A model generated the notes under the pieces. The model worked only from the letters and a program-made list of their open reading frames with translations, was not told the origin of the DNA and did not search any database. DNA of 46,947 nt from Actinomycetota bacterium (GTDB lineage: Bacteria; Actinomycetota; Thermoleophilia; Gaiellales; Gaiellaceae), in contig VAXH01000106.1 in assembly GCA_005883955.1 (NCBI GenBank), positions 3,672 to 50,618 on the forward strand. The letters run 5' to 3'. The stretch's first letter is position 1. Every line of letters starts with the position of its first letter. A program made the position numbers and the translations under genes. Below are positions 15,575 through 42,374 of the stretch, in pieces.

Positions 15575-16099
15575 CTAGTGGCCGCCGGAGTCCAGGCTGA
15601 AGCGGACGATGCCGCCGGAGAAATCGCTGTCGGCCGCCCAGGCCGAAGCGATCGATACGCCTGCGCCTCGCATATCGCTCTTCTCCGCTCGATGCCGGTT
15701 AGTCGAGTTCACATCAGCGCCCGGCGGCACGACGACAACTGGGCAGGGCGCACGCCTCGAGACCTCAGCCGAGATGCTGCCGAGCAGGGACGAGCGCGGC
15801 CCAGTCGACCCGACGACGATCATCGATGCCTTCTCTGCTGTCGCCGCGGCAACGAGCTGGTCGGCTGGATGGCCGATGTCGACGAGCCAGCCGGCGCCGC
15901 AGTCCACCTCGGGCGCGCCGGCGGAAATGCGCTCGAGCCGTTCGGCGGTGGCGCTGATCTTCGGTTCGGGCGCACCATCCTCGACGACGGAGATGAAAAC
16001 CAACCCGAGCCCGAGGTTGCTGCTCAAGCGGCGGGCAACCCGGGCGGCTCCCTTGGCGGACTCCGAGTCGTCGATACCGCAAATGATTGGACCCGCCAT
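15575..16099 (-). CDS. Universal stress protein (UspA family)
   Basis: A 174-residue single Usp domain: IICGIDDSESAKGAARVARRL at the N-terminus, and the nucleotide-binding VVGSTGPRSSLLGSISAEVS followed by APCPVVVVPPG. The G-x2-G-x9-G(S) pattern suggests ATP binding, although the second glycine region is altered (GSTGPRSS). The C-terminal 35 residues are an unusual extension. The ATG at 16099 has AAGGAGG upstream. A copy of the shared usp promoter (16125-16172) lies directly ahead. Confidence 0.9.
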   Translation of the reverse strand: MAGPIICGIDDSESAKGAARVARRLSSNLGLGLVFISVVEDGAPEPKISATAERLERISAGAPEVDCGAGWLVDIGHPADQLVAAATAEKASMIVVGSTGPRSSLLGSISAEVSRRAPCPVVVVPPGADVNSTNRHRAEKSDMRGAGVSIASAWAADSDFSGGIVRFSLDSGGH

Positions 16100-16124: not shown

Positions 16125-16172
16125 GCAGGTTGTCCTGCTTCGATCGGGACTGCCATCGGGGCGGCAACCCAT
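16125..16172 (-). promoter_or_regulatory. usp promoter element, copy D
   Basis: Reading on the minus strand from 16172: ATGGGTTGCCGCCCCGATGG. At offset 36 a weaker second block, AGGACAACCTGC, follows. The usp start lies 73 bp from the element's first base. It aligns without gaps to copies A, B, C and E. Confidence 0.6.
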
Positions 16173-16230
16173 CTCAGCGACGAATCGCCTCCATGCGCTA
16201 GGGCGACCGACCGCGGTTCGATACCAGCGC

Positions 16231-16798
16231 TTAATGCAATGCGAGATTGCGCTCAGCGAGGTGCGCGCGCAGCTTGCGACGAGCGTCGTGCAGTGTTTTG
16301 TAGAGAGCGCCGCGTGTCGTATCGAGACGGTCGGCGAGGACATCGATCGGGACCCCGTTCAGTGTCAGGGCAACGAGTACGCGCCGTTGATGCGGCGTCA
16401 GCGCCTCGCAGATTGCCGTCTGCAGGGTCGAGAGCAGTTCGCTCTGCTCGACCTGCTCATCCGGTGCGAGCCCGACGCTCGCAAACAGGTTCCAGGCTTC
16501 CGGCTCGAGCGGGAGCTCGCGGCCCTGCCAGGCACGCTTGCGCAGCTTGACGGCCGTCTCGAGCAGGGCTGATCAACGCGTCGCCTGCGGCCTCATGCGC
16601 GATCTCCTCAAGCTCGTCACGCAGGTGGGGCAGGCGGCCGCGGCGGCGCGCCGCCTCGAAGCGTGCGGCGCGCAGTAGCAGCGCGTGCAGACGAGCGACC
16701 GCCTCGTCGCGAGTCGCACCCTCGGCCCGAAGAGCGAGGAGCCACTCATGCGAAGCGTCGTCGATCGGGGGCGCGATAGCTGCGGGCAGTACCGACAT
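16231..16798 (-). pseudogene. Paralogous ECF sigma factor with region 2 deleted
   Basis: The N-terminal frame from ATG 16798 (IDDASHEWLLALRAEGATRD, LHALLLRAARFEAARRR) parallels the sigma factor at 14598. It runs to DALIS near 16570, then frame is lost. The second part, in another frame, starts LLETAVKLRKRAWQG and contains region 4 (LTPHQRRVLVALTLNGVPID, YKTLHDARRKLRAHL), ending in TAA at 16231. Relative to the paralogue about 64 nt are missing, exactly the DDFRGASRFTTWAY segment that binds the -10 element. As read it cannot make a sigma factor. Confidence 0.8.
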
Positions 16799-16804
16799 CG
16801 ATCT

Positions 16805-16948
16805 TTAGAAGCTGCGCCGGCGGCGTCGCGCCAGGACAGGCTTCGCTCGCTTCCAGACAAGCTGCTTCTTCGCGAGTCCGGCGGCGATCAGCAACAGCGC
16901 CGCGCTGAGCACGGCGAGTGCGGATGTGTAGGTCTCGAGAGCTTCCAT
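16805..16948 (-). CDS. Small membrane protein (47 aa)
   Basis: One membrane helix (YTSALAVLSAALLLIAAGLA) is followed by a strongly basic tail (KRAKPVLARRRRRSF), so the C-terminus is probably cytoplasmic. The ATG at 16948 has an excellent AAGGAGGTG seven bases upstream, which supports a real gene despite its size. It ends seven bases before the sigma pseudogene starts and is probably co-transcribed with it. Function unknown. Confidence 0.65.
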   Translation of the reverse strand: MEALETYTSALAVLSAALLLIAAGLAKKQLVWKRAKPVLARRRRRSF

Positions 16949-17050
16949 CTGTGCACCTCCTTCTGATTGGAGGATCGCGGGCGCCTGGCCGGGGCGCCAT
17001 TGGGTCTGGACCTCATCTGTGCGGGTGACGAGGCTGAACGTCACGAAACA

Positions 17051-17098
17051 TTGGGGCCGCGACCCGATGGCTGCCCGACATGGTGGCCTCCACCATGG
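17051..17098 (+). promoter_or_regulatory. usp promoter element, copy A
   Basis: TTGGGGCCGCGACCCGATGG at 17051-17070, followed by CTGCCCGA. The offset-36 block is CCTCCACCATGG. A perfect inverted repeat CATGGTGG-CCT-CCACCATG (17079-17097) overlaps that block and is specific to this copy. It precedes the five-gene operon that includes usp at 17514. Confidence 0.6.
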
Positions 17099-17172
17099 GA
17101 GTCGAGCGCCAAAGCAATAAAGCGCCGGCGCCGAGGCGGCAGAAGACGTTGCCGCCGAGAGAGGAGCCAACC

Positions 17173-17523
17173 ATGGAACGCGTAGCGATCATCGCGCGCC
17201 TGAAGGAAGGAAGTGAGCAGCGCGCCGCCGAGCTCGTCGGAGCCGGCCCACCCTTCGATCTCACCGACACCGGCATTGTTCGTCACAGCATCTACATCTC
17301 GGCGAGCGAGGCCGTATTCGTGTTCGAAGGCCACGAGGTCGAGTGGATCGTCGACCAACTCATCGACGAACCGTTCCACTACGAGCTGCACCGCGCGTTT
17401 GAGCAGTGGCGGGAGATCGTCGATGGACAGCCGCGGGTCGCGCGTGAGCGGTTCGGCTGGCAGCTTGATGACGCCGAGCCGATGGCGACCCAAGCGGGTG
17501 AGAGGAGCGAGTCATGGGCGTAA
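17173..17523 (+). CDS. Small alpha-beta protein, same family as the C-terminal domain of 41567-42232
   Basis: A 116-residue protein starting MERVAIIARLKEGSEQRAAE. It has a GPPFDLTDTGIVRHSIYI core and a SEAVFVFEGHEVEWIVDQL strand-helix pair, consistent with a ferredoxin-like or dimeric alpha-beta barrel fold. The same GPPFD...SxEAVFVFE pattern recurs in the C-terminal half of the protein at 41567. I know no function. The ATG at 17173 has GAGAGGAG upstream. The stop overlaps the start of the usp gene by ten bases; it is the first gene of a usp-doxX-DUF488-comA-like operon behind promoter copy A. Confidence 0.75.
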   Translation: MERVAIIARLKEGSEQRAAELVGAGPPFDLTDTGIVRHSIYISASEAVFVFEGHEVEWIVDQLIDEPFHYELHRAFEQWREIVDGQPRVARERFGWQLDDAEPMATQAGERSESWA

Positions 17524-17975
17524 TCGTTGTCGGTGTCGACCACTCGGCCGGAGCCAAGGCAGCGCTGCGGTTCGCGCTCGAGGAGGCGCGGCTGCGGCAG
17601 GCGACGCTGCGCGTCGTTCACGCCTGGCAGTTCGGCTACATCGGCGCTACCGGTCTCGAGGGGGCGCTGCCCGCCGTCGGCGGGGAGCTGGAAGAGTTTC
17701 GCGAAGGCGCGGCGGCCGCGCTCGAGGAGACTCTAAGGGACGTCGGCGCCGACAAGGACGGCGTCGCGATCGAGCGTCGCGTCGACCAGGGTGCGGCCGC
17801 CGCGGTCCTCGTCGAGGAATCCAGGGGCGCCGACCTGCTCGTCGTCGGCTCGCGCGGGCACGGCGGCTTCGCCCAGCTACTGCTCGGCTCGGTCAGCCAG
17901 CAGTGCGCGCAGCACGCGTTCTGCCCGGTCGTGATCGTCCGCGGCAGCGCGAAGAACGGACACGGAGTGAGTTAG
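17514..17975 (+). CDS. Universal stress protein (UspA family)
   Basis: A 153-residue Usp domain with all the usual parts: IVVGVDHSAGAKAALRFALEE at the start and the ATP-binding loop VVGSRGHGGFAQLLLGSVSQQ, followed by FCPVVIVRG. The G-x2-G-x9-G(S) motif is intact, so ATP binding is expected. The ATG has AGAGGAG upstream. It overlaps the preceding gene by ten bases and abuts doxX without a gap, so the operon is tight. Regulation by promoter copy A at 17051 is inferred. Confidence 0.93.
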   Translation: MGVIVVGVDHSAGAKAALRFALEEARLRQATLRVVHAWQFGYIGATGLEGALPAVGGELEEFREGAAAALEETLRDVGADKDGVAIERRVDQGAAAAVLVEESRGADLLVVGSRGHGGFAQLLLGSVSQQCAQHAFCPVVIVRGSAKNGHGVS

Positions 17976-18563
17976 ATGGAGTACGGAATGATCCTGTTGC
18001 GTGTCGTCGCCGGCTTGGCGCTGGCGGCGCACGGGTCGCAGAAGCTGTTTGGCTCCTTCGGCGGCAGCGGGCCGGCCGGGACGCGAAAGTTCTTCGCCGG
18101 ACTCGGCTTCCGGACGCCACTTGCGATGGCGTTCATCGCTGGTCTCAGCGAACTAGGCGGAGGCCTGCTGTTCGCCTTCGGCCTTGTCACGCCGCTCGCC
18201 GCACTCGCGATAACGGTAGTGATGCTGAACGCGATCGGCACCGTCCACTGGACGAAGGGCTTCTTCAATTCAGCCGGCGGCTTCGAATACAACCTGCTGA
18301 TCATCGCCACAGCGGTGGCGGTCACCGCCACCGGCCCCAGCCGCTTCTCGCTCGACCATGCCTTCGGCTGGGCGGGAAGCATCTCCGGCCCGTGGTGGGC
18401 GCTCGCGATCGTCGTGCTCGCCCCCATGATCGCAGTGGTCACCTTGACGCTTGGCCGCCAATCTCAGGCGCCCCAACCGTCGGACGAGCCATCCACAACA
18501 GCCGCGCCGTCAGCCACGGCTACGCCAGCAAGGCGGAAGGAGCGGCATTGGACGTCCGTCTGA
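17976..18563 (+). CDS. DoxX-family membrane protein
   Basis: A 195-residue membrane protein with four hydrophobic segments and the DoxX landmarks: LRVVAGLALAAHGSQKLFGSFGG (first helix and conserved HG-x-QK-F), GLSELGGGLLFAFGL, and GGFEYNLLIIATAVAV. The C-terminal 30 residues are a Ser/Thr/Pro/Ala-rich tail. DoxX proteins are linked to thiol and oxidative stress in membranes; the substrate is unknown. The ATG follows the usp stop with no spacing. A second DoxX-like protein lies at 23226, also behind a usp gene. Confidence 0.85.
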   Translation: MEYGMILLRVVAGLALAAHGSQKLFGSFGGSGPAGTRKFFAGLGFRTPLAMAFIAGLSELGGGLLFAFGLVTPLAALAITVVMLNAIGTVHWTKGFFNSAGGFEYNLLIIATAVAVTATGPSRFSLDHAFGWAGSISGPWWALAIVVLAPMIAVVTLTLGRQSQAPQPSDEPSTTAAPSATATPARRKERHWTSV

Positions 18564-18910
18564 AACGGGCCTACGAACCGCCGTCAGACGAAGACGGATA
18601 CCGCGTGCTCGTCGATCGGCTCTGGCCGCGCGGTGTCTCCAAGAAGGAGGCGGAACTCGACGCCTGGGAGAAGGAGCTGGCGCCGAGCAGCAAGCTCAGA
18701 GAGTGGTTCGGCCACGAGCCCGGCCGCTTCCCCGAGTTCCGCCGACGCTACATCGCCGAGCTCCGTGCCAATCGCGCGCGCCTAAGGGAGCTCAGACGAC
18801 GCGCCAGAATCGGCACGCTCACGCTCGTCTACTCGGCCCACGACAGCGAGCACAACGACGCCGTCGTCCTGGCCGAGGTGTTGCGGCGCGGTCTGCCGAA
18901 GTCGGATTAA
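18548..18910 (+). CDS. DUF488 family protein (YeaO-like)
   Basis: A 120-residue protein with the DUF488 signature YRVLVDRLWPRGVSKKEAELD, then WFGHEPGRFPEFRRRYIAEL and LTLVYSAHDSEHNDAVVLAEV. The molecular role is unknown. The only in-frame start near the domain is TTG at 18548, which overlaps the end of doxX by 16 bases. It is the fourth gene of the usp operon. Confidence 0.8.
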   Translation: MDVRLKRAYEPPSDEDGYRVLVDRLWPRGVSKKEAELDAWEKELAPSSKLREWFGHEPGRFPEFRRRYIAELRANRARLRELRRRARIGTLTLVYSAHDSEHNDAVVLAEVLRRGLPKSD

Positions 18911-18919
18911 GGACAGTCA

Positions 18920-19584
18920 TTGACGCCCTGGACAGTGTGGCCAGCGCTCGGGCAGCCGGTCTACGTACGTCCGGTGCGGCTCAACGGGAACGCGGGCGGC
19001 TTCCTCGAATACGTGCTCACCCAGCGCGGCGACGCGGTGGCGCGCTACCTCGAGGAATGCCAGGAGCTCGGCTTCGACATCGTCGAGATCTCGAGCGGCT
19101 TCGTCACCCTCCCGGTCGACGACCTCCTGCGGCTGACCAAAGCGGTGGGCAAGGCAGGCCTGAAGCCGAAGCCGGAGGTCGGGATTCAGTTCGGCGCTGG
19201 TGGCGCCTCCAGCATCGAAGCGCTCGAGGCCGAGGGGACCCGCGATATTGGCCAGGCGATCGAGCTCGCGAAGCGGCACCTCGACGCCGGCGCACACATG
19301 CTCATGATCGAGTCCGAGGGAATTTACGCGAATGGCGCACCGACGTCGTCGCCCAGATCGTGTCCGAGCTTGGGCTCGAGCAGGTCATGTTCGAGGCGGC
19401 CGAGGCCGACGTCTTCACCTGGTACGTCAAGAACTACGGCATCGACGTCAACCTGTTCGTCGACCACAGCCAGATCGTCCAGCTCGAGTGCCTGCGCGCA
19501 GGCATCTGGGGCACCCAGGACACGTGGGGTCGAATGCTCTCCTCCCGGCCGCGCTCCGCCGACGAGGCCTCGCCGAGGCCGTGA
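18920..19584 (+). pseudogene. Phosphosulfolactate synthase-like (ComA family) protein, frameshifted
   Basis: Frame 1 from TTG 18920 covers LGFDIVEISSGFVTLPVDDL, KPEVGIQFGAGGA and DAGAHMLMIESEGI, the TIM-barrel core of ComA-type phosphosulfolactate synthases. Near 19324 the frame shifts; the other frame continues LREWRTDVVAQIVSELGLEQ, EADVFTWYVKNYGIDVNLFVD and ends at 19584. Relatives have an ESEGI-TEN-xREWR stretch, so only a few bases seem to be lost. ComA proper makes phosphosulfolactate in coenzyme M synthesis; bacterial homologues outside methanogens are of uncertain role. It is the last gene of the usp operon. The break may be real or an assembly error. Confidence 0.75.
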
Positions 19585-19704
19585 CCATCGCATGCCCGAG
19601 CCCCTAGCACGCCGCGCGCCGAGCCTTCGCGAACGCTGGCGGCTGGAGCCGGCGACCTCTGTCGCTGGTTGGTCAGGCGGGGGAACAATGAGCGGACGGG
19701 ATCC

Positions 19705-20361
19705 CTAAGCCTGGATGAGGCCGCGGCGGATCGCGTAACGGGTGAGCTCGACACGGTCGCGCATCCCGAGCTTGTCGAGGATGTTCTGGCGGTGACGCTC
19801 GACGGTCTTGATGCTGATGAAGAGCAGCTCGGCGATCTCCTTCGAGGTGTGCGCCTCGGCGATCAGTTTCAGCACCTCGAGCTCGCGCGGGGTCAGGACG
19901 TCGAACTGCTCCTCGCCGCGTCCGCCGCGCTCGACGTAATCGCGGACAAGTGTCGTGACCGCTGAGGGATAGAGGAAGGTATCGCCTCGCATAGCAGCGC
20001 GGCATGCGTCGACGATGTCGGTGTCGGCGCCGGATTTCAAGACGTAGCCGGAGGCTCCCGCCTTCAGCGCCTCGAAGAGGAATTGCTCGCTGTCGTGCAT
20101 CGACAGCATCAGCACGCGGATTTCGGGCTTGCGCTTGTGCAATTCAGCGGCGGCCTGGATACCTGTCATGCGTGGCATCGAGACGTCGAGAATCGCGAGA
20201 TGGATGTCCTCCTTGAGCGCGATCTCGACCGCCTCGTGGCCGTCCGCGGCTTCGGCGACGACCTCGAGGTCGGGCTTGGCCTCGAGGAGCCGGCGCAATC
20301 CAGAGCGGACAACCGCGAAGTCATCGGCGATCAGGATCCGCGTCACGAGCGGGATCGGCAT
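19705..20361 (-). CDS. NarL/FixJ-type response regulator
   Basis: A 218-residue protein. The receiver domain is at residues 7-125: acidic pair in IADDFAVVRSGL, phospho-acceptor Asp in LAILDVSMPRMTG, and Lys in YVLKSGADTD. The LuxR-type helix-turn-helix is at about 150-212 (LTPRELEVLKLIAEAHTSKE, ISIKTVERHRQNILDKLGM). The start overlaps the histidine kinase stop by one base, so it is the second gene of a two-component operon. The DosR/DevR group of this family controls usp genes in mycobacteria and streptomycetes, which makes it the best local candidate to act on the usp promoters here; this is inference. Confidence 0.92.
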   Translation of the reverse strand: MPIPLVTRILIADDFAVVRSGLRRLLEAKPDLEVVAEAADGHEAVEIALKEDIHLAILDVSMPRMTGIQAAAELHKRKPEIRVLMLSMHDSEQFLFEALKAGASGYVLKSGADTDIVDACRAAMRGDTFLYPSAVTTLVRDYVERGGRGEEQFDVLTPRELEVLKLIAEAHTSKEIAELLFISIKTVERHRQNILDKLGMRDRVELTRYAIRRGLIQA

Positions 20362-21350
20362 CAGGTCTTCGCACCCACGGGTTCGTCGACCGGGGTGGTT
20401 GGCACCTCGAGGCGCACCTCGACGCCTCCGCGGGGCGATTCCTTGATCGCGAGTGCGCCGTCGACGAGCAACGCACGCTCCCGCATGCTGCGCAGGCCGC
20501 CGTGTTCCTCCGGCATCGACCCGTCGAAGCCGCGCCCATCATCGGCGACGGAGAGGACGATGCTGTCGGGGCCGCGCTCGAGTGCGATCGTCGCACGGCT
20601 CGCGCTTGAGTGCCGCGCGATATTGGTCAGGCTCTCCTGCGCGATGCGGTAGACGGCGAGCTCGGTTTCGGGTGCGAGTTTCGGCAGCGAGGGACCGAAG
20701 TCGCGCTCGACATCGATGCCGGAAACACGCCCGAAAGTTGTTGTCAGCTCGGTGAGCGCGCTGACGAGGCCGAGGTGCTCGAGCATCTCTGGCCGCAGCT
20801 CGCTCGAGATGCGGCGCACTTCATCGAGGGCGCGACGGACGGCCTCCTTCGTCCCGTCGATCTCACGCCGATGCTCGGGCTCGGTCTCGGCGATCGAGTT
20901 GAGCTCTAGCAGCACGCCGGTCAGTAGCTGACCGACCTCGTCGTGCAGGTCGCGGGCGATCCCGACACGTTCCGCCTCCTGCGCGGCGAGCACGCGTCGG
21001 GCGCTCCGCTGGCGCTCGCTCTCGAGACGGTCGAGCATCTCGTTGAAGGCATGTACGACTTGGCCGACCTCATCGTCGCGGTCGACCTGCAGGCGCTGTC
21101 CCGGCCGCAGCAGGTCGACCGTGTCCATCCGCTGGGCCAAGCGCTCGAGTGGCGCGACTACGCGCCGCAAGAGGAGGGCGTTCGCCGCCACGGTGACCGC
21201 GAGCCCGGCGACGATGATTAACACCTCCGTGAGCGTCGGCGGAGCATGGATCGTTACCGGGGTGGCGACCAGCAGTAGCGCGATCAGGGCCAGGAGGCCT
21301 GCGTTGACCGCGAAGATGCGCCAGAAGAGAGAAACGGTACGTGCCTCCAC
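20361..21350 (-). CDS. Membrane histidine kinase of the NarX/DesK class
   Basis: A 329-residue sensor kinase. Two membrane segments (FWRIFAVNAGLLALIALLLVA, TEVLIIVAGLAVTVAANALLL) enclose only about ten residues, so there is almost no extracellular sensor. A HAMP domain follows (RRVVAPLERLAQRMD to AFNEMLDRLESER). The HisKA_3 domain has the phospho-His in VGIARDLHDEVGQLLTGV. The ATPase domain has the N box IAQESLTNIARHSSA and G box SVADDGRGFDG. Signals are probably sensed in the membrane or cytoplasm. It pairs with the response regulator at 19705. Confidence 0.92.
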   Translation of the reverse strand: MEARTVSLFWRIFAVNAGLLALIALLLVATPVTIHAPPTLTEVLIIVAGLAVTVAANALLLRRVVAPLERLAQRMDTVDLLRPGQRLQVDRDDEVGQVVHAFNEMLDRLESERQRSARRVLAAQEAERVGIARDLHDEVGQLLTGVLLELNSIAETEPEHRREIDGTKEAVRRALDEVRRISSELRPEMLEHLGLVSALTELTTTFGRVSGIDVERDFGPSLPKLAPETELAVYRIAQESLTNIARHSSASRATIALERGPDSIVLSVADDGRGFDGSMPEEHGGLRSMRERALLVDGALAIKESPRGGVEVRLEVPTTPVDEPVGAKT

Positions 21351-21359
21351 AGCTCGACG

Positions 21360-21750
21360 TTAGCGCCGGGCTCCGTTTATGGCCATCGTTTCCCGCGCCT
21401 GCCGGATTGCGCCGGCTCCTCGCGCCGACAACGATCAGGTCGGCGGCCTCCTCAGCGGCGATTTGTCCCAACAGCGAGGGGGCGTCACCGACGGCAACGC
21501 GCCGCTCGGCGCGGTCCGTCACCGCGTACTCGGCCGCGAGCCGGGCGAGCAGGCGCGCAGCTCCCTCGCGGCCACCCTTCATCGTCACGCTCTCGCCGCC
21601 GTCGCCGTCGCCGTTGAGCGGACCGATGCCCTCGGCGACGTGCACGAGCACAAGCCGGAGTCCCAGCCGTTCTGTGAGCTCGACCGCCGTGGCCAGTGCC
21701 TGGCGCCCTTCATCCGTGTCCGTCACCCCGCAGACGATTGTTCCCCGCAT
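21360..21750 (-). pseudogene. Universal stress protein lacking its C-terminal end
   Basis: ATG 21750 with AGGAGCTG upstream opens a Usp domain: GTIVCGVTDTDEGRQALATA, LRLVLVHVAEGIGP, AEEAADLIVVGARSRR. Homology stops at about 21409. The final 35 or so residues, with the GS-type phosphate loop and the CPVVVVPP strand, are missing, and the frame runs on as unrelated sequence into the kinase gene. Promoter copy E lies upstream. A deletion between this gene and the kinase is likely. Confidence 0.7.
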
Positions 21751-21781
21751 GTGATCAGCTCCTGTCCTCGTTTGTCTTCTC

Positions 21782-21829
21782 GGAGGGTCGCCGCCTGCAG
21801 AAATCGACGCCATGCGGCGAGGACCTCAT
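21782..21829 (-). promoter_or_regulatory. usp promoter element, copy E
   Basis: On the minus strand from 21829: ATGAGGTCCTCGCCGCATGG, with CGGCGACCCTCC at offset 36. The second block matches copies B and C at nine of twelve positions at identical spacing. The usp start lies 79 bp from the element's first base. Confidence 0.55.
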
Positions 21830-21967
21830 TTCCGGGTCTCTTCCTGCCCAGCCAGGCCGGGCAAACGGTTCGTCGAGACCGCGGAATAGGCCGTTCGAGG
21901 CGGTATGGGCTAAGGCTCGTCCGCGTAAGACCGCGAGGCATCGCAACACACCGCACCCGGGCGGGTG

Positions 21968-22498
21968 ATGACGCCGCGCGCAACGAGCGAGCAGCTGGTC
22001 GCGGCCGCCTGCACGCGCGTCGCGGGACGACCCGCGCGTGTGGCCGATATCGGTACCGGCAGCGGCGCGATCGCCATTGCGATCGCGATCGCATGCCCGA
22101 ACGTCGAAGTCTGGGCGACAGACATCAGCCGCTCGGCGGTGGCTCTCGCGCGCGCTAACGTGCGACGGCATCGGCTCGAAGACCGCGTCTTCGTCCGCCA
22201 TGGCGACCTCCTGGCACCGGTACCGGGGCCCGTGGACTTGATCGTCGCCAATCTGCCCTACGTCGCAGCCTCGACTGCGGCCCAACACCCCGACCTCCTC
22301 TCTGAGCCCGTCGCCGCCGTCTTCGCCGCCGGCGACGGTCTCGAGCCGTACCGCAGGCTCGTCGACGCCGCGGCGATTCAACTCGCTGACGGCGGAGCCT
22401 TGCTCCTGCAGCTGAATAGGCGGGTTGTCGAAGCCTCGCGATCCGAGCTCCCGGCGCTGCGTGCCGCCCTTTGCAACACCGTCGCGGCAGCGGCCTGA
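21968..22498 (+). CDS. PrmC/HemK-like methyltransferase, N-terminal domain absent
   Basis: A 176-residue SAM-dependent methyltransferase domain: motif I VADIGTGSGAIAIAIAIACP, acidic loop WATDISRSAVALARANV, and the catalytic-loop position IVANLPYVAAST. NLPY replaces the usual NPPY. PrmC methylates the Gln of release factors, but the family needs an N-terminal helical domain of about 80 residues that is missing here. It is therefore a truncated copy or a different N5-glutamine/small-molecule methyltransferase. The start is ATG 21968 (GTG at 21965 is equally possible). No ribosome binding site is clear, which supports truncation. Confidence 0.65.
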   Translation: MTPRATSEQLVAAACTRVAGRPARVADIGTGSGAIAIAIAIACPNVEVWATDISRSAVALARANVRRHRLEDRVFVRHGDLLAPVPGPVDLIVANLPYVAASTAAQHPDLLSEPVAAVFAAGDGLEPYRRLVDAAAIQLADGGALLLQLNRRVVEASRSELPALRAALCNTVAAAA

Positions 22499-22601
22499 CG
22501 CGCGTCTTTGGTCCCGGGGCGAACGCGGTAGACCACGGGACGCTCTACCTGCAGAACGCTGCGGCACCTCTGTACCGCGGTGGAGGGCAACGAGCACCGA
22601 A

Positions 22602-22649
22602 ATGGGGCCGCCCACCGATGGCCACTCGGGCCTCGCCCGGCGACGCTGG
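22602..22649 (+). promoter_or_regulatory. usp promoter element, copy B
   Basis: ATGGGGCCGCCCACCGATGG at 22602-22621 and CGGCGACGCTGG at 22638-22649. The usp ATG is 69 bp from the first base of the element. The second block may contain the -10 region (GACGCT). Confidence 0.7.
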
Positions 22650-22670
22650 GGTGGACGAAAGGAGAACGAC

Positions 22671-23141
22671 ATGGGTGGGTCAATCGTGTGTGGTGTCGAC
22701 GGATCGGCCGACTCTCAGGCCGCACTCGGCGTCGCGGCGAGGCTGGCAGAGCGGCTCGAAGCGAGGCTCGTTCTCGCGCACGTGGCCGAGGTCGCACTCG
22801 TCCCGTATGCCGCCGTCGGCGGTATGAGGGCGGGCGGAATCGCGCCTCAGCCGATGACGCTCGCGAGGCGCGACGGCCAGGAGGAAGCTGGCGCGCGGCT
22901 GCTCGAACAGATCGCCGCCGAGCACGGGCTCCGTGACGCCGATCGGCGCGTGGTTGTCGGTTTTCCGGCCGAACGACTCGCCGATCTGGCCGACGACGAG
23001 GACGCCGAGTTGATCGTCGTCGGCTCTCGCGGGCGCGGGCGGTTCAAGGCCGCGTTTCTCGGCAGCGTCTCGAACAGCCTGGTCGGCGTCGCCCGCTGCC
23101 CGGTGTTGATCGTCCCGCCCGGCGCCGCCGAGGCGCAGTGA
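22671..23141 (+). CDS. Universal stress protein (UspA family)
   Basis: A 156-residue Usp domain. It starts GSIVCGVDGSADSQAALGVA, has a longer middle loop (YAAVGGMRAGGIAPQPMTLA), and ends with the ATP-binding VVGSRGRGRFKAAFLGSVSN and ARCPVLIVPPG. The G-x2-G-x9-G(S) motif is intact. The ATG at 22671 has AAAGGAG upstream and sits behind promoter copy B. The doxX-like gene follows 84 bp downstream on the same strand and may share the transcript. Confidence 0.93.
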   Translation: MGGSIVCGVDGSADSQAALGVAARLAERLEARLVLAHVAEVALVPYAAVGGMRAGGIAPQPMTLARRDGQEEAGARLLEQIAAEHGLRDADRRVVVGFPAERLADLADDEDAELIVVGSRGRGRFKAAFLGSVSNSLVGVARCPVLIVPPGAAEAQ

Positions 23142-23225
23142 TCTCTCTCGCCCGAACACGTAAGGACCGGACGCTTGGCGTCGCTAACGACGTCGAGGCC
23201 TCATCGACTGGAACGGAGGAGTTGC

Positions 23226-23684
23226 ATGGCAACAACGACATACCAAGGAAAGCCGACCGCGAAGGAGAGGTCCGTCTCGGCGCACTCGCTGAGGAGCGAT
23301 TCCGCCTACCAGGCGTACACGCTGCTTCGGATCACGTTCACCGTCGCCCCGATCGCATTCGGAATCGACAAATTCTTCAACGGCATGGTCGACTGGGAGA
23401 AGTACCTTGCTCCCTGGATCAACCGGCTGATGCCCGGTACGGGGCACAGCTTCATGCTGTTCGTCGGCATCGTCGAGATCGTCGCCGGGCTGGTGGTTGC
23501 CCTGAAGCCACGCTACGGCGCATACCTCGTCGCAGCCTGGCTCGCAGGGATCGTCGTCAACCTGCTCACCTACTCGGGCTACTACGACATCGCCCTGCGC
23601 GACTTCGGCCTCCTGCTCGGCGCGCTCACCCTCGGGCGGCTGGCAATGAAATACGACTCTGCCCCGCTACGGCTGCGTCGCTAG
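23226..23684 (+). CDS. DoxX-like membrane protein
   Basis: A 152-residue protein with about four membrane segments: YTLLRITFTVAPIAFGIDKF, SFMLFVGIVEIVAGLVVAL, YLVAAWLAGIVVNLLTYSGY, and a last one around DFGLLLGALTLGRLA. The conserved R..F...F...DKFF pattern and the WEKYLAPW loop fit the DoxX/DUF417-like group. The first 25 residues are polar. The ATG at 23226 has GGAGGAG upstream. It follows a usp gene, as does the other DoxX gene at 17976, which suggests a functional link. A strong hairpin follows. Confidence 0.8.
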   Translation: MATTTYQGKPTAKERSVSAHSLRSDSAYQAYTLLRITFTVAPIAFGIDKFFNGMVDWEKYLAPWINRLMPGTGHSFMLFVGIVEIVAGLVVALKPRYGAYLVAAWLAGIVVNLLTYSGYYDIALRDFGLLLGALTLGRLAMKYDSAPLRLRR

Positions 23685-23696
23685 CAGCAAGCGAAA

Positions 23697-23726
23697 GAGC
23701 AGGCGCTGCTGCCGCGGCGCCTGCTC
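23697..23726 (+). terminator. Strong hairpin after the doxX-like gene
   Basis: GAGCAGGCGC and GCGCCTGCTC form a perfect 10-bp stem with a 10-nt loop, 12 bp after the stop at 23684. No T tract follows. It separates usp-doxX from corA. Confidence 0.6.
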
Positions 23727-23782
23727 GCGCCAGGACCGATCGGAACCGAACTCAGATTAACCAGCGAAGACGAGAAGCGACG

Positions 23783-24814
23783 ATGAGCGCCACCCTGCTC
23801 CCAGCCAAGGGCTCGCCGCCAGCGGCGGACGCGACCGAACTCGCGGTCCGTCCCTCAGTTTGCGAGGTCATTCACGATCAGGGCAGCGGGGTCGTCACCT
23901 TCGACCGCGAGACGGTCGAGAGCCTGCTTGCAAGCGGCCGCTTCTTCTGGCTCGACCTTGGCTACCCGACGAGAGGCGACTTCGACATCCTGCGCGAGGT
24001 CTTCAAGTTCCATCCGCTTGCGCTCGAAGACCCGGAGCAGTTCAACCAGCAAGCGAAAATCGACGGCTATGACGACTTCGTCTTTATCGTCATCTACGGC
24101 GCCGGCCCCGACGACGACCGGCTGGTCGAGGTGCATTGCTTCTACTCCGAACGGTTCCTTATCACCGTTCATCGCGACGACTGTCCGGCCTTTGCAGAGA
24201 TCGGCCGGCGCTACCGGAAGCGCGAGCGAGCGATCGACCACCCATCGCTCCTGCTGTACCGCGTTTGTCGGTGGCCTCGTCGACAGCTTCTTCCCGAGCC
24301 TCGCCGAGTTAGACGACCGCATCGACGAACTCGAGGACGCGATCTTCCTGAAGGCCGACGAGAACCAGCTCCAAGAGATCTTCCAGATGAAGCGACTCCT
24401 CGTCGGGATGCGGAAGACCGTGACGCCACAGCGCGACGCCTTCGCGAGCCTGATGGGCGGCGTCGCCGAACTGCCCGGACTCGCCGAGGAGGACGAGCAC
24501 TACTTCCGCGACGTCTATGACCATCTGATCCGGATCAGCGACCTGTCGACAGCTACCGCGACCTCCTCACGGGCGCAATGGACGTCTATCTCTCAACCGT
24601 CTCGAATCGAATCAACGCGGTGATGAAGCAACTGACGATCATCGCCACCATCTTTCTGCCGCTGACGTTCATCACCGGTTTCTTCGGCCAGAACTTCGAC
24701 TGGATGGTTTCCCACGTCCACAGCTGGCCCATGTTCCTCGTTCTCGGCGTCGGCACCGAGATCGCCGCCCTCCTCGCGCTCCTCGCATTCTTCAGACGCC
24801 GCGGCTGGTTCTAA
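23783..24814 (+). pseudogene. corA: CorA-family Mg2+/Co2+ transporter with two compensating frameshifts
   Basis: The frame from ATG 23783 encodes the cytoplasmic domain (FFWLDLGYPTRGDFDILREV, FHPLALEDPEQFNQQ). Near 24262 an extra T appears (GTTTGTC where GTTGTC would keep LYRVVGGLVDSFF); the middle part (LAELDDRIDELEDAIFL, EIFQMKRLLVGMRKTV) lies in another frame. Near 24545 one G seems missing (CTGTCGAC for CTGGTCGAC), restoring the original frame for the two membrane helices and the GQNF motif (here FFGQNFDWMV, with TGF before it), to the stop at 24814. Otherwise the protein is complete, about 343 residues. Single-base errors in the sequence are a likely cause. Confidence 0.8.
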
Positions 24815-24869
24815 GACCGGGCAACATCGAGGAGATGCACGTTCGCTCGAGCCAGCGAAGGCGTAGAAG

Positions 24870-26243
24870 GTGAGCCAGCTCCTCCTCCTGGCGAGCACCG
24901 CCCCGACCGAGATCAACCAGGATTACCTGCTGCAGGCGCGGCAGATGCAGGCGCTCTCCTTCGCGGTGCACATCCCGCTCGTCTGCTTCGGGATCGCCTT
25001 CCCGACACTGGTGTTGTTCGTCGAGTGGCTCTACCTGCGCACCGGCGATGAGCTCTACCGGGCGCTGGCGAAGCGCTGGACGAAGGTGATGGCGGCGCTG
25101 TTTGCGGCCGGTGTCGTCACGGGCACGATCCTCAGTTTCGAGATGGGCCTGCTGTGGCCCAGTTTCACCGCCAGCTTCGGCAGCGTCTTCGGTCTCGGAT
25201 TTGCGATCGAAGGCTTCTCCTTCTTCATGGAAGCGATCTTCATCGGCATCTACATCTACGGCTGGAGCCGGCTCTCCCCGCGAGCGCACTTCGCCAGTGG
25301 CATCCCGGTCGCGGTTGCCGGCATCACCGGGTCGCTGACGGTGATCTCGGTCAATGGCTGGATGAACCATCCGACCGGCTTCCAGCTACGGGGTGGCAAA
25401 GCCGTCGACGTGCATCCGCTGCAGGCGCTCTTTGGGAACAGCTACTTCTGGCACGAGTTCGTGCACATGTATCTCGCCGGTTACATTGTCACCGGCTTCC
25501 TGGTCGCCGCCGCCTACGCGGTCGGTCGCCTGCGCGGGCGCTGGGGTCGCTACGAGCGCACCGCGCTCGCGATCCCGCTCACCGTCGCGGCGCTCTGCTC
25601 CCCGGTGCAGGTGCTCGTCGGCGACTGGAACGGGCGCGAGGTGGCGCGGGCACAGCCGACCAAGCTCGCTGCCTTCGAGGGGCTCGGCGAGACGAGACGG
25701 GGCGCGCCCGTGCACCTGCTCGGCTGGTACAAGCACGGGCGGGTCGAGTACGGGATCCCGATCCCGCGGCTGCTTTCGTTGCTCGCTTACCACGACCCGA
25801 ACGCGAGCGTCGCCGGCCTCGACGCCGTCCCTCCGAACGAGCGCCCGCCCGTCAACGTCGTGCGCCTCGCCTTTCAGACGATGGTCGGGATCGGAACCCT
25901 GCTCGCCCTGCTCGGCTTCGCCTACCTCGCCGTCCGCTGGCGACGCAGGCGGCTGCCGGGGTCGCCCTGGTTCTACCGTGCGCTGGTCGTGGCGGGGCCG
26001 CTCTCGGTCGTCGCGCTGATCTGCGGCTGGGTGACGACCGAGGTCGGCCGTCAGCCCTGGGTCGTCTACCGGGTGATGCGCACCTCCGAAGCCGTCACCG
26101 GAGCTGGTGGCATCCCCGTCGGCTACGCGACGCTCGCGGTCGTCTACCTCGGGCTCGCGCTCGCGGTCGCCTGGATCCTCCGCCGGCTCGCCCGCGCTCC
26201 GCTCGATCCGGTGAACGCTCCGCCCACGGCCAAGGGAGCCTGA
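24870..26243 (+). CDS. cydA: Cytochrome bd-type terminal oxidase, subunit I
   Basis: A 457-residue CydA protein, nine hydrophobic helices, reducing O2 with quinol electrons at the cell membrane. Probable haem ligands are His in SFAVHIPLVCFG, His in WHEFVHMYLAG, and Met in VYRVMRTSEAVT; the GRQPWVVYRV motif is present. The quinol-binding Q loop (about residues 240-300) is short, as in the CIO/non-L-loop group. The GTG at 24870 is preceded by a modest purine stretch. cydB starts one base after the stop. Bd oxidases work at low oxygen, in line with other genes around it. The cydCD haem-assembly transporter is not seen here. Confidence 0.93.
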   Translation: MSQLLLLASTAPTEINQDYLLQARQMQALSFAVHIPLVCFGIAFPTLVLFVEWLYLRTGDELYRALAKRWTKVMAALFAAGVVTGTILSFEMGLLWPSFTASFGSVFGLGFAIEGFSFFMEAIFIGIYIYGWSRLSPRAHFASGIPVAVAGITGSLTVISVNGWMNHPTGFQLRGGKAVDVHPLQALFGNSYFWHEFVHMYLAGYIVTGFLVAAAYAVGRLRGRWGRYERTALAIPLTVAALCSPVQVLVGDWNGREVARAQPTKLAAFEGLGETRRGAPVHLLGWYKHGRVEYGIPIPRLLSLLAYHDPNASVAGLDAVPPNERPPVNVVRLAFQTMVGIGTLLALLGFAYLAVRWRRRRLPGSPWFYRALVVAGPLSVVALICGWVTTEVGRQPWVVYRVMRTSEAVTGAGGIPVGYATLAVVYLGLALAVAWILRRLARAPLDPVNAPPTAKGA

Positions 26244-26244
26244 C

Positions 26245-27507
26245 ATGCATCTCTATGAGCTCCCGCTCCTGTTCGCGCTCGTCGGGCTCGCCTTTTACAC
26301 GGTGCTCGCGGGCGCCGACTTCGGCGCCGGCTGGTGGCAGCTGACGGCGGGCAAGGGCCCGGACGCCGCCTCGATCCGCGACCACGCCCACCACGCGATG
26401 GGCCCTGTCTGGGAAGCGAACCATGTCTGGCTCATCTTCGTGCTCACCGTCGTCTGGACCGCCTACCCCAGCGCGTTCGGCTCGATCGCCTCGACGCTTA
26501 CGATCCCGCTCTTCATCGCCGCGGTCGGGATCATCTTCCGCGGCACCGCCTACGCGCTCCGCGCGGGCGCCTCCACCGTACGCGAGCTGCGCGCGATCGA
26601 CACCGTTTTTGCGCTCTCCTCGATCCTGACCCCGTTCGCCCTGGGCACCGCCGTCGGCGGCGTCGCTTCCCGCCGCGTTCCGGTCGGGAACGCCGCCGGC
26701 GACCAATTCTCTAGCTGGCTCAACCCCACCTCGCTCCTGATCGGCGTCCTCGCCGTCGCGACCGCCGCCTACCTGGCGGCCGTGTTCCTCTGCGCCGACG
26801 CCGCCCGGCTCGGCGAAACGACGCTCGAGCGGAAGTTCCGAACGCGCGCGCTCGCGGCCGGTCTCGTCAGTGGGGCGATCGCGCTCGCCGGCGTGGCCGT
26901 GCTGCATTCCGACGCGCACCCGCTCTACCACCGTCTCGTCGAGGGCAAGGGGCTGATCGGCCTGCTCGCCTCGATCGTCGCCGGCAGCGCCACGCTCGCG
27001 CTTGTCTGGCGCAAGCGCTACGAAGCCTCCCGCTACACCGCCGCGCTCGCCGTCGCCGCGATCATCGCCGGCTGGGCGCTCGCACAATCGCCGCTCTTCC
27101 TCGAGGGACTGACGGTCCGGGAAGCGGCCGCAGGCCGGGACACACTCATCGCCGTGACCGTCGCCGTGCTCGCGGGAGCAGCAATCCTTTTCCCCTCGCT
27201 CGCGCTGCTCTTCCGACTCGTGCTCGGTGGAGAGCTCGGCCGCGGCGAAGGCGCCGCCGGCCAACCGACTCAGGCTCGCTCCCTCATCGCGGCCCTTGCA
27301 CCTGGGTTGCTGCCGAGGCTCGCCATCGCCTGCCTGGTCGCCGGGATCGGCTTCACCACAATCGCCAACGCAGCCTGGGCACACACAATCGGCGTGTTCT
27401 CTCTCTTCGCCTTCATCGTCGTCGCATTTCCCGCCGCCCTCCCACCCGACCTACTGCCAACCCCCTCAAAGACCCCCAATGCAGAGAAAGCAGACCCCGT
27501 TGAATGA
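26245..27507 (+). CDS. cydB: Cytochrome bd-type terminal oxidase, subunit II
   Basis: A 420-residue CydB protein: LLFALVGLAFYTVLAGADFGAGWW at the N-terminus, MGPVWEANHVWLIFVLTVVW in the second helix region, and FALGTAVGGVASRRVPVG. It forms the scaffold subunit of the bd oxidase with CydA. It is longer than the usual 330-380 residues because of a C-terminal region with two further hydrophobic stretches (ALAPGLLPRLAIACLVAGIG, HTIGVFSLFAFIVVAFPAAL). The ATG at 26245 comes one base after cydA, with AAGGGAG upstream inside cydA. Confidence 0.9.
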   Translation: MHLYELPLLFALVGLAFYTVLAGADFGAGWWQLTAGKGPDAASIRDHAHHAMGPVWEANHVWLIFVLTVVWTAYPSAFGSIASTLTIPLFIAAVGIIFRGTAYALRAGASTVRELRAIDTVFALSSILTPFALGTAVGGVASRRVPVGNAAGDQFSSWLNPTSLLIGVLAVATAAYLAAVFLCADAARLGETTLERKFRTRALAAGLVSGAIALAGVAVLHSDAHPLYHRLVEGKGLIGLLASIVAGSATLALVWRKRYEASRYTAALAVAAIIAGWALAQSPLFLEGLTVREAAAGRDTLIAVTVAVLAGAAILFPSLALLFRLVLGGELGRGEGAAGQPTQARSLIAALAPGLLPRLAIACLVAGIGFTTIANAAWAHTIGVFSLFAFIVVAFPAALPPDLLPTPSKTPNAEKADPVE

Positions 27508-27577
27508 GTCCCGTTACCAAAGTGCCCGGGCGAGTTTCAGGCAGGCTGGCTGCAGCCCAATGAACTAGGGGTCTCCT

Positions 27578-27597
27578 CGCGCGCGCGCGCGCGCGCG
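27578..27597. repeat. (CG)10 dinucleotide tract
   Basis: Twenty bases of perfect alternating CG lie in the short gap between cydB and the convergent ahpD-like gene. Such tracts can adopt Z-DNA and are prone to slippage. Confidence 0.9.
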
Positions 27598-27608
27598 AAC
27601 AACTAGCG

Positions 27609-28094
27609 TCAGCTGCTCGCCGCCTGCATCAGGGGTCTTTGGTAAGGGGATTCCATTCGGGTCGCGATCGCGATCCGGTTCCAGGCATTCATGGCGGTGA
27701 TCGCCCAGAGCAGCTGGCCGAGCTCCTCGTCGCTGAACTGCGCTGCTGCTTCGTCCCAGACGGCGCGCGGAACGTGCTCGTCGCTGATCAGCGTGATCGC
27801 GTCGGTGAGCGCGAGGGCAGCCCGTTCGCGGTCGCTGAAGAGGGGCGAGTCGCGCCAGGCGGCGAGGGCGTATAGGCGTTGCTCACTTTCGCCGGCTCGA
27901 CGCGCCTCCTTGGTGTGCGTGTCGATGCAGTAGGCGCAGCCGTTGACGATCGAGGCGCGCAGGTTGACGAGTTCCCGCAGAGTCGAGTCGAGCTCGACGG
28001 ACTTGCTAAGTGCTACGAGGGCTCGGTGCGGCGCCGGAGCGGCCGTCGCGATCCGCATCCGAGGTCGTTCGAATGGGTGGGTTATCTGGTTCAC
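27609..28094 (-). CDS. AhpD-like / carboxymuconolactone decarboxylase family protein
   Basis: A 161-residue helical protein with the redox-active C-x2-C and proton-relay His of AhpD-type peroxidases: IVNGCAYCIDTHTKEARRAG. The rest (LAAWRDSPLFSDRERAALAL, ELGQLLWAITAMNAWNRIAI) matches the single-domain CMD family. It probably reduces peroxides or acts as a thiol-disulfide partner. The GTG at 28094 is chosen for AAAAGGAGA six bases upstream and because it yields the usual short lead NQITHPFERPRMRIA; the frame is open further to 28241. Confidence 0.87.
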   Translation of the reverse strand: MNQITHPFERPRMRIATAAPAPHRALVALSKSVELDSTLRELVNLRASIVNGCAYCIDTHTKEARRAGESEQRLYALAAWRDSPLFSDRERAALALTDAITLISDEHVPRAVWDEAAAQFSDEELGQLLWAITAMNAWNRIAIATRMESPYQRPLMQAASS

Positions 28095-28413
28095 GGCTCT
28101 CCTTTTGGACGGCTCTTCGGTCCAGGACGCGCCCGGGCAAACCGCCGCGGTGAGTCGCAGCCGATCGCGTGGCTTGGCGTGCAAGCCCACGTCCGGCGAG
28201 TGCTTGCGGACTTGGCGCGCGTCTGCATCGGTGCTGGTCATGGCGGTTGCGTTCAGCCTGTCCGACGGAAGAGCGTATGCCTATGGGCTCAGGGCACCAC
28301 TTCTCGCGCGTGTCTCATGCAGCGGGGCCGGTTGCCGCGACACGGGGGGCGCGCCCGTTCGGTCTGCGGCTGGTTCAGGAGGCGAGGGCCCGTGGAGGCG
28401 AGTAGCCGTCGAA

Positions 28414-28461
28414 ATGGGGCCGCTTCCCGATAGCCCGGCCCCGTGCGCTCGGCGACGCTGG
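28414..28461 (+). promoter_or_regulatory. usp promoter element, copy C
   Basis: ATGGGGCCGCTTCCCGATAG at 28414-28433 and CGGCGACGCTGG at 28450-28461, the same 36-nt offset as copy B. The following ATG at 28484 is 70 bp from the first base. Here GGGGCC also has a distal GGCCCC-like partner. Confidence 0.7.
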
Positions 28462-28483
28462 CGGTAACAGAAAGGAGCGCGAG

Positions 28484-28549
28484 ATGAAGGGATCGATCGT
28501 TTGTGCCGGCAAGGGTTTGCGTGTCTGCGGCGGGGCCTCCGACCGATGA
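28484..28549 (+). pseudogene. 21-codon remnant of a universal stress protein gene
   Basis: ATG 28484, with AAAGGAG upstream, reads MKGSIVCAGKGLRVCGG and stops at 28549. MKGSIVC is the usual usp start (compare MGGSIVC at 22671), after which the gene is lost. The promoter copy and ribosome binding site are intact. The stop overlaps the start of the next gene (ATGA), so it could still drive coupled translation of 28546 and 28773. Confidence 0.6.
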
Positions 28550-28776
28550 ATCCCGACGTCTTCATCACGATCGTCTTCTCGTCCTTCGTCTTCTTGGTAG
28601 GCGTCGCAGGAGCGCTCTTCGTGACGGTGACGGTGGTGCGCGGTCGTCGCCGCGCCGATGCGATTCTCAGTCCTCCCCCCGACGGGGCGGATGCGCGTTC
28701 TCCGCAACCGGTGGTTGCGCCCTCGCGGGCGCTTCACTCGGAGCGCCCAGCGGTCGGGCGGGTGTGGCGGTCATGA
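28546..28776 (+). CDS. Small single-pass membrane protein
   Basis: A 76-residue protein with one N-terminal membrane helix (VFITIVFSSFVFLVGVAGAL) and a polar, Arg/Pro-rich tail. I know no family. The ATG overlaps the stop of the usp remnant and its own stop overlaps the start of 28773 (ATGA), so three frames are chained. It is probably an accessory subunit of the following Usp-like membrane protein. Confidence 0.6.
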   Translation: MNPDVFITIVFSSFVFLVGVAGALFVTVTVVRGRRRADAILSPPPDGADARSPQPVVAPSRALHSERPAVGRVWRS

Positions 28777-29459
28777 CGGCTCGCGTTCGCCGCTGGAGCG
28801 CCAAGACGACCATCGCCGCGACCTACGCCTCGACCGGCGGCGTTTTGCTCGCGCTCACGCTCCTCGTCGCCTTCCTGCTCGAGCCGCCGCTACTTGGCTG
28901 GGTCGGCTTCCCGGTCGTGTGCGCGATCGTCTTGAGCTTGGCGACGGTCGCGACGATCGCGTTTCCGCGCATAGGCATCAACCCGCAGCGCCCGGCCGTT
29001 GCGCTCGACCATCAATCGCGGCTTCTTGTCGTTGCCGACGAGCATTGCGGTTCACCAGCGCTCTGGCAGGAGATCTACGGGCGTCTCGCCGGCGCGGTCG
29101 CGGTCCATCTCGTGGTACCGGTGCGCGTCTCGCACGTGCACTACTTGACGAATGACGAGCTCGAAGAATCCCGCGATGCCGAGGATCGGGCACGGCTCGC
29201 GATCGAATTGCTGCGCGAACGCGGCGTCGCCGTCACCGGAGGAGTCGGCAGCGACGACCCGCTCGCGTCGATGACCGATGCGCTCGCATCGTTCCCCGCC
29301 ACCCGCGTGCTGCTCGCGACCTCGAGCCAGGAAGACTCGTACTGGATGGAGCAGGGGCTCGTGGCCAAGGCCCGGACGTTGACGCCGCTCCATGTCGACC
29401 ACGTCGTCGTCCCTCCGACACCAACCACAGCCCGCGGTCGGAGGCTCGCTCGACAATGA
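28773..29459 (+). CDS. Membrane-anchored protein with Usp-like domain
   Basis: A 228-residue protein. Two N-terminal membrane helices (AATYASTGGVLLALTLLVAF, GFPVVCAIVLSLATVATIAF) precede a soluble alpha-beta domain: RLLVVADEHCGSPALWQEI, VHLVVPVRVSH, ARLAIELLRERGVAVTGGVG, and ATRVLLATSSQEDSYWMEQG. The Rossmann-like order and strand spacing resemble Usp domains, but the glycine-rich ATP loop is not evident. Overlapping start with 28546. A stress role is inferred from position behind a usp promoter. Confidence 0.7.
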   Translation: MTARVRRWSAKTTIAATYASTGGVLLALTLLVAFLLEPPLLGWVGFPVVCAIVLSLATVATIAFPRIGINPQRPAVALDHQSRLLVVADEHCGSPALWQEIYGRLAGAVAVHLVVPVRVSHVHYLTNDELEESRDAEDRARLAIELLRERGVAVTGGVGSDDPLASMTDALASFPATRVLLATSSQEDSYWMEQGLVAKARTLTPLHVDHVVVPPTPTTARGRRLARQ

Positions 29460-42359: not shown

Positions 42360-42374
42360 GTAACAGTCTGTTAC
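42360..42374. repeat. 15-bp palindrome, copy 2
   Basis: The second exact copy of GTAACAG-T-CTGTTAC touches the stop codon of ackA. The 113 bp between the copies hold no gene; GAACTG and CAGTTC within it can pair and may be a weak terminator for the two convergent genes. Confidence 0.75.

Follow-up and report, generated by a model that had tools for sequence, protein, structure and literature searches.

A predicted operator and fixed -10 element shared by usp promoters around a NarL-type two-component system in a Gaiellaceae genome

The described systems closest to the one analysed here are DosR/DevR of Mycobacterium tuberculosis and OsdR of Streptomyces coelicolor. In M. tuberculosis, Rv3134c is a gene for a universal stress protein (usp). 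According to the cited papers, the DosR regulator genes are co-transcribed with Rv3134c and the kinases DosS and DosT carry two GAF domains (PMC4082495), and the consensus boxes of DosR (TTSGGGACTWWAGTCCCSAA; PMC2275270) and OsdR (AGGGCCGATCGGCCCT; PMC5069765) both hold GGG and CCC spaced by 8. We analysed a stretch of 46,947 nucleotides (hereafter the window) from contig VAXH01000106.1 of assembly GCA_005883955.1, part of a 2.56-Mb draft genome of a Gaiellaceae bacterium, in which an 18-bp dyad (block 1) followed at a fixed distance by a hexamer (block 2) recurs in front of usp and other genes and in front of a NarL-type two-component system. In our view these sites probably make up a single regulon of activator-dependent promoters, with the dyad bound by the local NarL-type regulator, block 2 acting as the -10 element and the system controlling itself.

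This locus would resemble DosR/DevR and OsdR in having a NarL-type regulator, usp targets and G-rich palindromes. As in DosRS, usp genes would be under control and one usp would lie in the regulator operon, here judged from the positions of sites and genes alone. The outer half-sites are near-identical, TTSGGG in the DosR and OsdR boxes quoted above and ATSGGG here. Unlike the spacing of 8 in the quoted boxes, N6 and N7 are common here: GGG-CCC spacing among 58 confident sites was N5 in 13, N6 in 29, N7 in 27 and N8 in 11 (a stretch of four G or four C enters two of these classes), with the fixed register 4-6/13-15 in 26/58, the DosR-like register 3-5/14-16 in 11/58, and perfect dyads in 9. 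Unlike DosS and DosT, the window kinase has no GAF domain by Pfam, and none was found either in its counterparts of L044 and L055 (L numbers denote fetched stretches, or loci, of relatives, and G numbers genomes). The recognition helix also departs from that of DevR, reading ktVERHR in the window regulator and ktVKNYV in DevR. The original prediction had looked to a DosR/DevR-type system, which does not agree with a kinase lacking GAF and an operator different from the DosR and OsdR boxes; the system thus resembles the DosR regulon without the kinase and operator that define DosRS. Among the titles and abstract openings listed from open-licence PMC papers on usp with DosR/OsdR or NarL-/LuxR-type regulators, on phosphoketolase islands, on intramembrane sensing and on dormancy, none described this operator.

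The features on which the argument draws are these, in window coordinates, with dyads and -10 elements as predicted:

15575..16099, minus strand: usp D, universal stress protein of 174 amino acids (Pfam Usp 9.6e-18).
16155..16172, minus strand: operator dyad of site D; -10 CAACCT at 16127-16132; usp D start at 16099.
16999..17016, minus strand: site F, the sixth site; -10 GATCCT at 16971-16976.
17051..17068, plus strand: operator dyad of site A; -10 CACCAT at 17091-17096.
19705..20361, minus strand: NarL-type response regulator with receiver and LuxR-type helix-turn-helix, the proposed operator binder.
20361..21350, minus strand: sensor histidine kinase with HAMP, HisKA_3 and HATPase_c, two hydrophobic segments and a short loop.
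21070..21750, minus strand: usp E, its Usp domain C-terminally incomplete (profile positions 1-119 of 141).
21812..21829, minus strand: operator dyad of site E; -10 GACCCT at 21784-21789; precedes usp E, kinase and regulator, a putative operon.
22602..22619, plus strand: operator dyad of site B; -10 GACGCT at 22642-22647.
22671..23141, plus strand: usp B, 156 amino acids.
28414..28431, plus strand: operator dyad of site C; -10 GACGCT at 28454-28459.
28484..28549, plus strand: 21-codon remnant of a usp, following site C.

Sites A, B, C, D and E were found exactly where the original prediction had placed them, in an alignment free of gaps, and its distances of 69, 70, 73 and 79 bp to the starts behind B, C, D and E were correct. 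Site F (17016-), which points away from site A, had been overlooked. The description of the five as usp loci was inexact, since C is followed by a usp remnant and the first gene behind A is not a usp.

Block 1 is a dyad of the form ATSGGG-N6-CCCSAT with a GGC extension on one side only (columns 19-21), and block 2 has the form of a -10 hexamer, xANNCT, in which the consensus T rarely occupies the first position. A column profile was drawn from 115 sites picked on block 1 alone at >=9 bits. Columns 1-6 and 13-18, on which the sites had been selected, were conserved; the spacer columns 23-38 held at most 0.19 bits each, and columns 42 and 46 rose to 0.82 and 0.83 bits, with A at column 42 in 73/115 and T at column 46 in 74/115. 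A pyrimidine (Y) at 52 and a purine (R) at 53 occurred in 83/115 each. Because the profile took in L166-L172, fetched via a pattern that contained the -10, it was repeated without those loci on a usp-picked set (8 of 13 loci; L046, L047, L051, L052 and L056 left out) and a regulator-picked set (14 of 20; the duplicate L128 and L131-L135, whose regulator homologues are 58-62% identical, left out). Among block-1 sites of >=12 bits, ANNNT stood at 42/46 in 22/25 and 25/29, respectively, whereas none of the other offsets between columns 24 and 74 had it in more than two sites; at 9 bits the figures were 28/45 and 30/51, other offsets reaching no more than 4. An A at -11 and a T at -7 are the signature of a -10 hexamer. 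The match of ANNNT to that signature makes column 53 the predicted start and puts the dyad centre at -43.5. The original prediction's expectation that transcripts begin just downstream of block 2 is compatible with this signature. By this sequence-based reckoning the centre (column 9.5; about -43.5) is at the position of a class-II activator, adjoining the predicted -35 region.

The two blocks could also be the -35 and -10 of promoters that an alternative sigma factor recognises as a class, which would account for the constant spacing of a -10-like hexamer and for the one-sided GGC columns 19-21, lying where a -35 element would fall. However, block 1 is a dyad with both arms conserved (in the columns selected on) and leaves a gap of 22 nt to the -10 hexamer, more than a -35 box allows, and the presence of sites tracks the response regulator; we give this reading almost no credence. 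Alternatively, the likeness might come from duplication, within the cluster, of a usp cassette together with the DNA preceding it, which would make a common operator unnecessary. Sites B, C, D and E do share the first usp codons besides the upstream blocks, and site C looks like a duplicated promoter plus usp 5' end. Against this stand the spacer columns 23-38, nearly blank beside columns 42 and 46, the occurrence of similar sites before unrelated genes and a distance to the usp start that is kept in other genera and families. Recent duplication therefore explains the sites poorly, and we regard it as very improbable; the original prediction had argued against shared ancestry of the whole region.

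In order to score loci that had no part in its construction, a matrix of 22 columns was built from window sites A-E only and applied to a 90-base interval, -120 to -30, ahead of each usp start. In L044-L056, which had been fetched via relatives' matches to usp B, the five-site matrix matched 14/36 usp starts at a background p<0.01 (binomial ~3e-19), and the 14 sites sit 66-82 bp before usp starts, across other genera and families. One of the relatives, G029, has a usp 67% identical to usp B with a similar site in front. Twenty further loci lay around regulator matches outside the loci already analysed and were chosen without reference to the motif. There the matrix matched 10/20 usp starts compared with 0/23 in regulator-minus genomes (Fisher 1e-4), a contrast that is partly confounded by minus-genome usp genes of other subfamilies. 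The 20 starts include two G081 usp genes counted twice, since two contigs repeat them (all four negative); usp starts up to 60 bases from a locus end were dropped, as was the regulator-plus L031 from the minus set.

Sixteen of the regulator-fetched loci gave 29 matrix matches of >=12 bits versus 7, 4 and 9 in three dinucleotide shuffles. Three loci of 58-60% regulator homologues gave 2 versus 1, 2 and 1, and 21 regulator-minus loci gave 2 versus 3, 1 and 4. The original prediction had asked whether the matrix hits coding DNA as often as promoters; in an approximate form of that comparison, a ribosome site and an open reading frame (ORF) followed 18/29 held-out matches compared with 14.6% of random positions, which does not refute the sites as promoters. 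Stretches of 4.2 and 4.4 kb from two distant relatives held no tblastn match to the regulator or the kinase, and their best sites reached 8.4 and 8.8 bits.

At the level of whole genomes, tblastn with the window regulator matched 22/129 genomes of the order at E<=1e-65, which formed the regulator-plus set; of the 22 genomes of the minus set, seven were seen to have no match and the rest were not among the matches listed. A refined pattern, ATSGGG-N6-CCCSAT-NN-C-N20-ANNCT, was drawn from sites in seven plus genomes, at a time when the sites of the regulator-fetched loci had already been seen. With 0-1 mismatch it found, among the matches listed, at least 46 sites in 16/22 plus genomes, 13 of them exact, and 34 of the 46 on a contig holding the regulator. 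The minus set yielded 1 site in 22 genomes, so that 16/22 plus and 1/22 minus genomes carried a site (Fisher p 5e-6, plus sites again being those among the matches listed). The fifteen plus genomes that had not shaped the pattern contributed 23 sites in 9 genomes (among the matches listed). Plus and minus genomes share genera: the window genome has 3 sites and its congeners G001 and G002 none, G095 has 1 and G032 none, and G119, G120, G122 and G123 have 2-3 each with none in G124 or G033. A loose pattern, GGGGCCGCNNCCCGATGGC, proved uninformative with 2 mismatches, matching 57/61 genomes with a reversed control similar in number, and was discarded.

The regulator belongs to the NarL/FixJ type by its domains (Pfam Response_reg 1.5e-27, GerE 2.4e-19). 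Its orthologues in the motif-bearing loci L044, L053, L049, L050, L055 and L054 are 70-90% identical by tblastn. Across 21 orthologues (>=70% identity, window included, two duplicate loci left out), a kinase adjoins the regulator in 18 loci, which makes this a NarL/FixJ-type system with a HisKA_3 partner, and a usp stands directly before the kinase in 13. In 11 of these 13 usp-kinase-regulator loci, L116 among them, the operator precedes the usp; the usp of L044, whose start codon is ambiguous, has the site 80 bp upstream of its Usp domain. At the corresponding position, five homologues of 58-62% had no usp and no site of >=14 bits. In the window, the reading frame of usp E overlaps the kinase gene (20361-21350), and because site E stands before usp E, kinase and regulator, positive autoregulation is predicted.

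Could another dimeric regulator, for instance of the Crp/Fnr type or a second one of the NarL type, bind the sites and count the local two-component system merely among its targets? Crp-type sites have a 5-6-5 layout, and TGGGG-N6-CCCCA has the same; in L051 and L124, usp genes have further NarL-type regulators close by, and 12 of the 46 sites with 0-1 mismatch (among the matches listed) are on other contigs. On the other hand, only 1 site was found in 22 regulator-minus genomes, several of them congeneric with plus genomes, the sites cluster on the regulator's contig (34 of 46, among the matches listed) and the operator precedes the usp in 11/13 usp-kinase-regulator arrangements. We consider such a regulator unlikely, although no search was aimed at Crp-type genes, and the cluster's own NarL-type two-component system is most likely the one that works the operator, as judged from these sequence comparisons.

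Several results weigh against control of these sites by the local regulator, besides the confounded contrast given above. The site is absent at 22/36 usp starts in L044-L056 and at 10/20 in the regulator-fetched loci, and the Y/R start step occurs in only C and F of the six window sites. In L119, L125 and L054, kinase and regulator are present but no usp and no site precede them. Of the two exceptions among the usp-kinase-regulator loci, the site in L127 belongs to a Gre-like gene and that in L129 is weak. The plus genomes G072, G081, G110, G111 and G124 have no site at <=1 mismatch, G072 and G081 being without one just as their congeners G024 and G020 are; the single match of G039 is not among the matches listed, and 4/7 G049 matches lie off the regulator's contig. 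At <=2 mismatches, plus genomes gave 155 matches versus 36 for the reversed pattern, and minus genomes 78 versus 27, so that the reversed pattern sets the background too low and matches with 2 mismatches are no evidence on their own.

Collectively, the dyad, the fixed position of the predicted -10, their conservation and their co-occurrence with the regulator are properties of the compared sequences and support the proposal that a local stress regulon has an operator of its own. The binding and phosphorylation of the regulator, its role as an activator and not a repressor, the operon structure and the signal are what we infer. A signal would reach the membrane kinase (20361-21350), which would phosphorylate the NarL-type regulator (19705-20361). 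The phosphorylated dimer would then bind the 18-bp dyad adjoining the -35 region and recruit RNA polymerase to the weak -10 in class-II fashion, and the regulon, kinase and regulator included, would rise.

VraR and LiaR are cell-envelope regulators. The system is like those of the VraR/LiaR type in that the regulator, among solved structures, matches VraR best and the kinase has two segments, a short loop, HAMP and HisKA_3; by hydropathy the membrane segments span about residues 10-30 and 41-61, with a very short loop between them. VraR (2.4e-37) and NarL ranked above DevR (1.4e-27), but the partner of a GAF kinase in L051 shows the same order, so the ranking alone does not separate the regulator from DosR. 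The kinase scored 87.6 bits against the LiaS model (cut-off 450). Unlike VraR/LiaR-type systems, kinase and regulator fell far under every NCBIfam equivalog cut-off shown, and the predicted targets here are usp and redox genes. The top NCBIfam scores were to MctR/MctS (regulator 171.8 bits, kinase 151 bits), and membership there fails at cut-offs of 300 and 700 bits.

A second usp-linked two-component system, with a GAF kinase of DosS-like layout, was observed at L051 3374-5721 (G043) and L124 5960-8280 (G095). G043 and G095 thus carry both kinds of system, and their GAF kinases have their own regulators beside usp genes.

Genes other than usp behind sites of 26-33 bits encode GreA/GreB-like factors, glyceraldehyde-3-phosphate dehydrogenase, a pyridine-nucleotide oxidoreductase (Pyr_redox) and an MMPL transporter; weaker sites (18-24 bits) precede a family-5 solute-binding protein and an ATP-synthase D subunit. 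Divergent operator pairs 20-40 bp apart serve two genes at L044 15077-/15103+, L045 8302-/8341+, L048 9315-/9338+ and L055 9148-/9176+. In G123 and G120 a variant site, ATGGGGTCnCGnGCCCATTGG, with the -10 position unchanged, precedes a receiver-domain protein (L173 356+, L174 2495+, L175 2927-; identified by Pfam for L173, the others alike by eye) and may mark an extra target outside the island described below.

Around sites A and F the window contains the following genes:

16805..16948, minus strand: membrane-like protein of 47 amino acids, the gene behind site F.
17173..17523, plus strand: ORF of 116 amino acids, first gene after site A; ribosome site present.
17514..17975, plus strand: usp A, second gene after site A (Pfam Usp 2.5e-32).
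17976..18563, plus strand: DoxX-family membrane protein, downstream of usp A (Pfam DoxX 8.3e-19).

Neither the 47-aa protein nor the 116-aa ORF matched a Pfam family. Site F and its gene recur in L045 (G029) and L116 (G072), and the divergent A/F pair recurs in L116. Site A, which starts with TTGGGG, lies 122 bp upstream of the 116-aa ORF and 463 bp upstream of the usp A start (17514). Site C is an exact match to the refined pattern, and the ORFs after its usp remnant gave no Usp match; the arrangement of site, 21-codon remnant and other ORFs (28414-28900) resembles a promoter gained by copying a usp 5' end. On the minus strand, the gene 27609-28241 of the carboxymuconolactone-decarboxylase family has a weak candidate site 59 bp in front of it, at 28300, which scored 15.8 bits in the combined model. 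Downstream of usp B, the coding of a CorA-like segment (23928-24623) is apparently split between frames. An RNA element was rejected as an account of the sites: no Rfam family reached its cut-off in the window, and predicted transcription begins only after the dyad.

The usp cluster has genes for acetate kinase, phosphoketolase, transaldolase and cytochrome bd on its flanks (42374-45017, 11669-12766, 24870-27507), which suggests a fermentation or low-oxygen island; no matrix match of >=9 bits stood in front of these genes. A second transaldolase copy is present at G000:C30, and among the six genomes searched the window copy was nearest to the copy on G029's usp contig. In a check on the actinobacterial placement, WhiB was found in 0/7 genomes examined.

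A tentative picture, which we rate as possible and no higher, is that of a dormancy-type usp regulon rewired to a non-DosR pair. An intramembrane-sensing LiaS/VraR-like system, having taken up DosR-like half-sites in a tighter register, might be spreading between genera as a patchy stress/fermentation island (usp, cytochrome bd, transaldolase, phosphoketolase, acetate kinase) and gaining targets by copying promoter and usp 5' end, as at site C. For one stress regulon, DNA alone yields an operator open to testing, together with its -10 element, predicted start, regulator and list of targets, and the matrix can serve in annotating the other genomes. The results further suggest that DosR-like layouts of usp regulons are not limited to DosRS.

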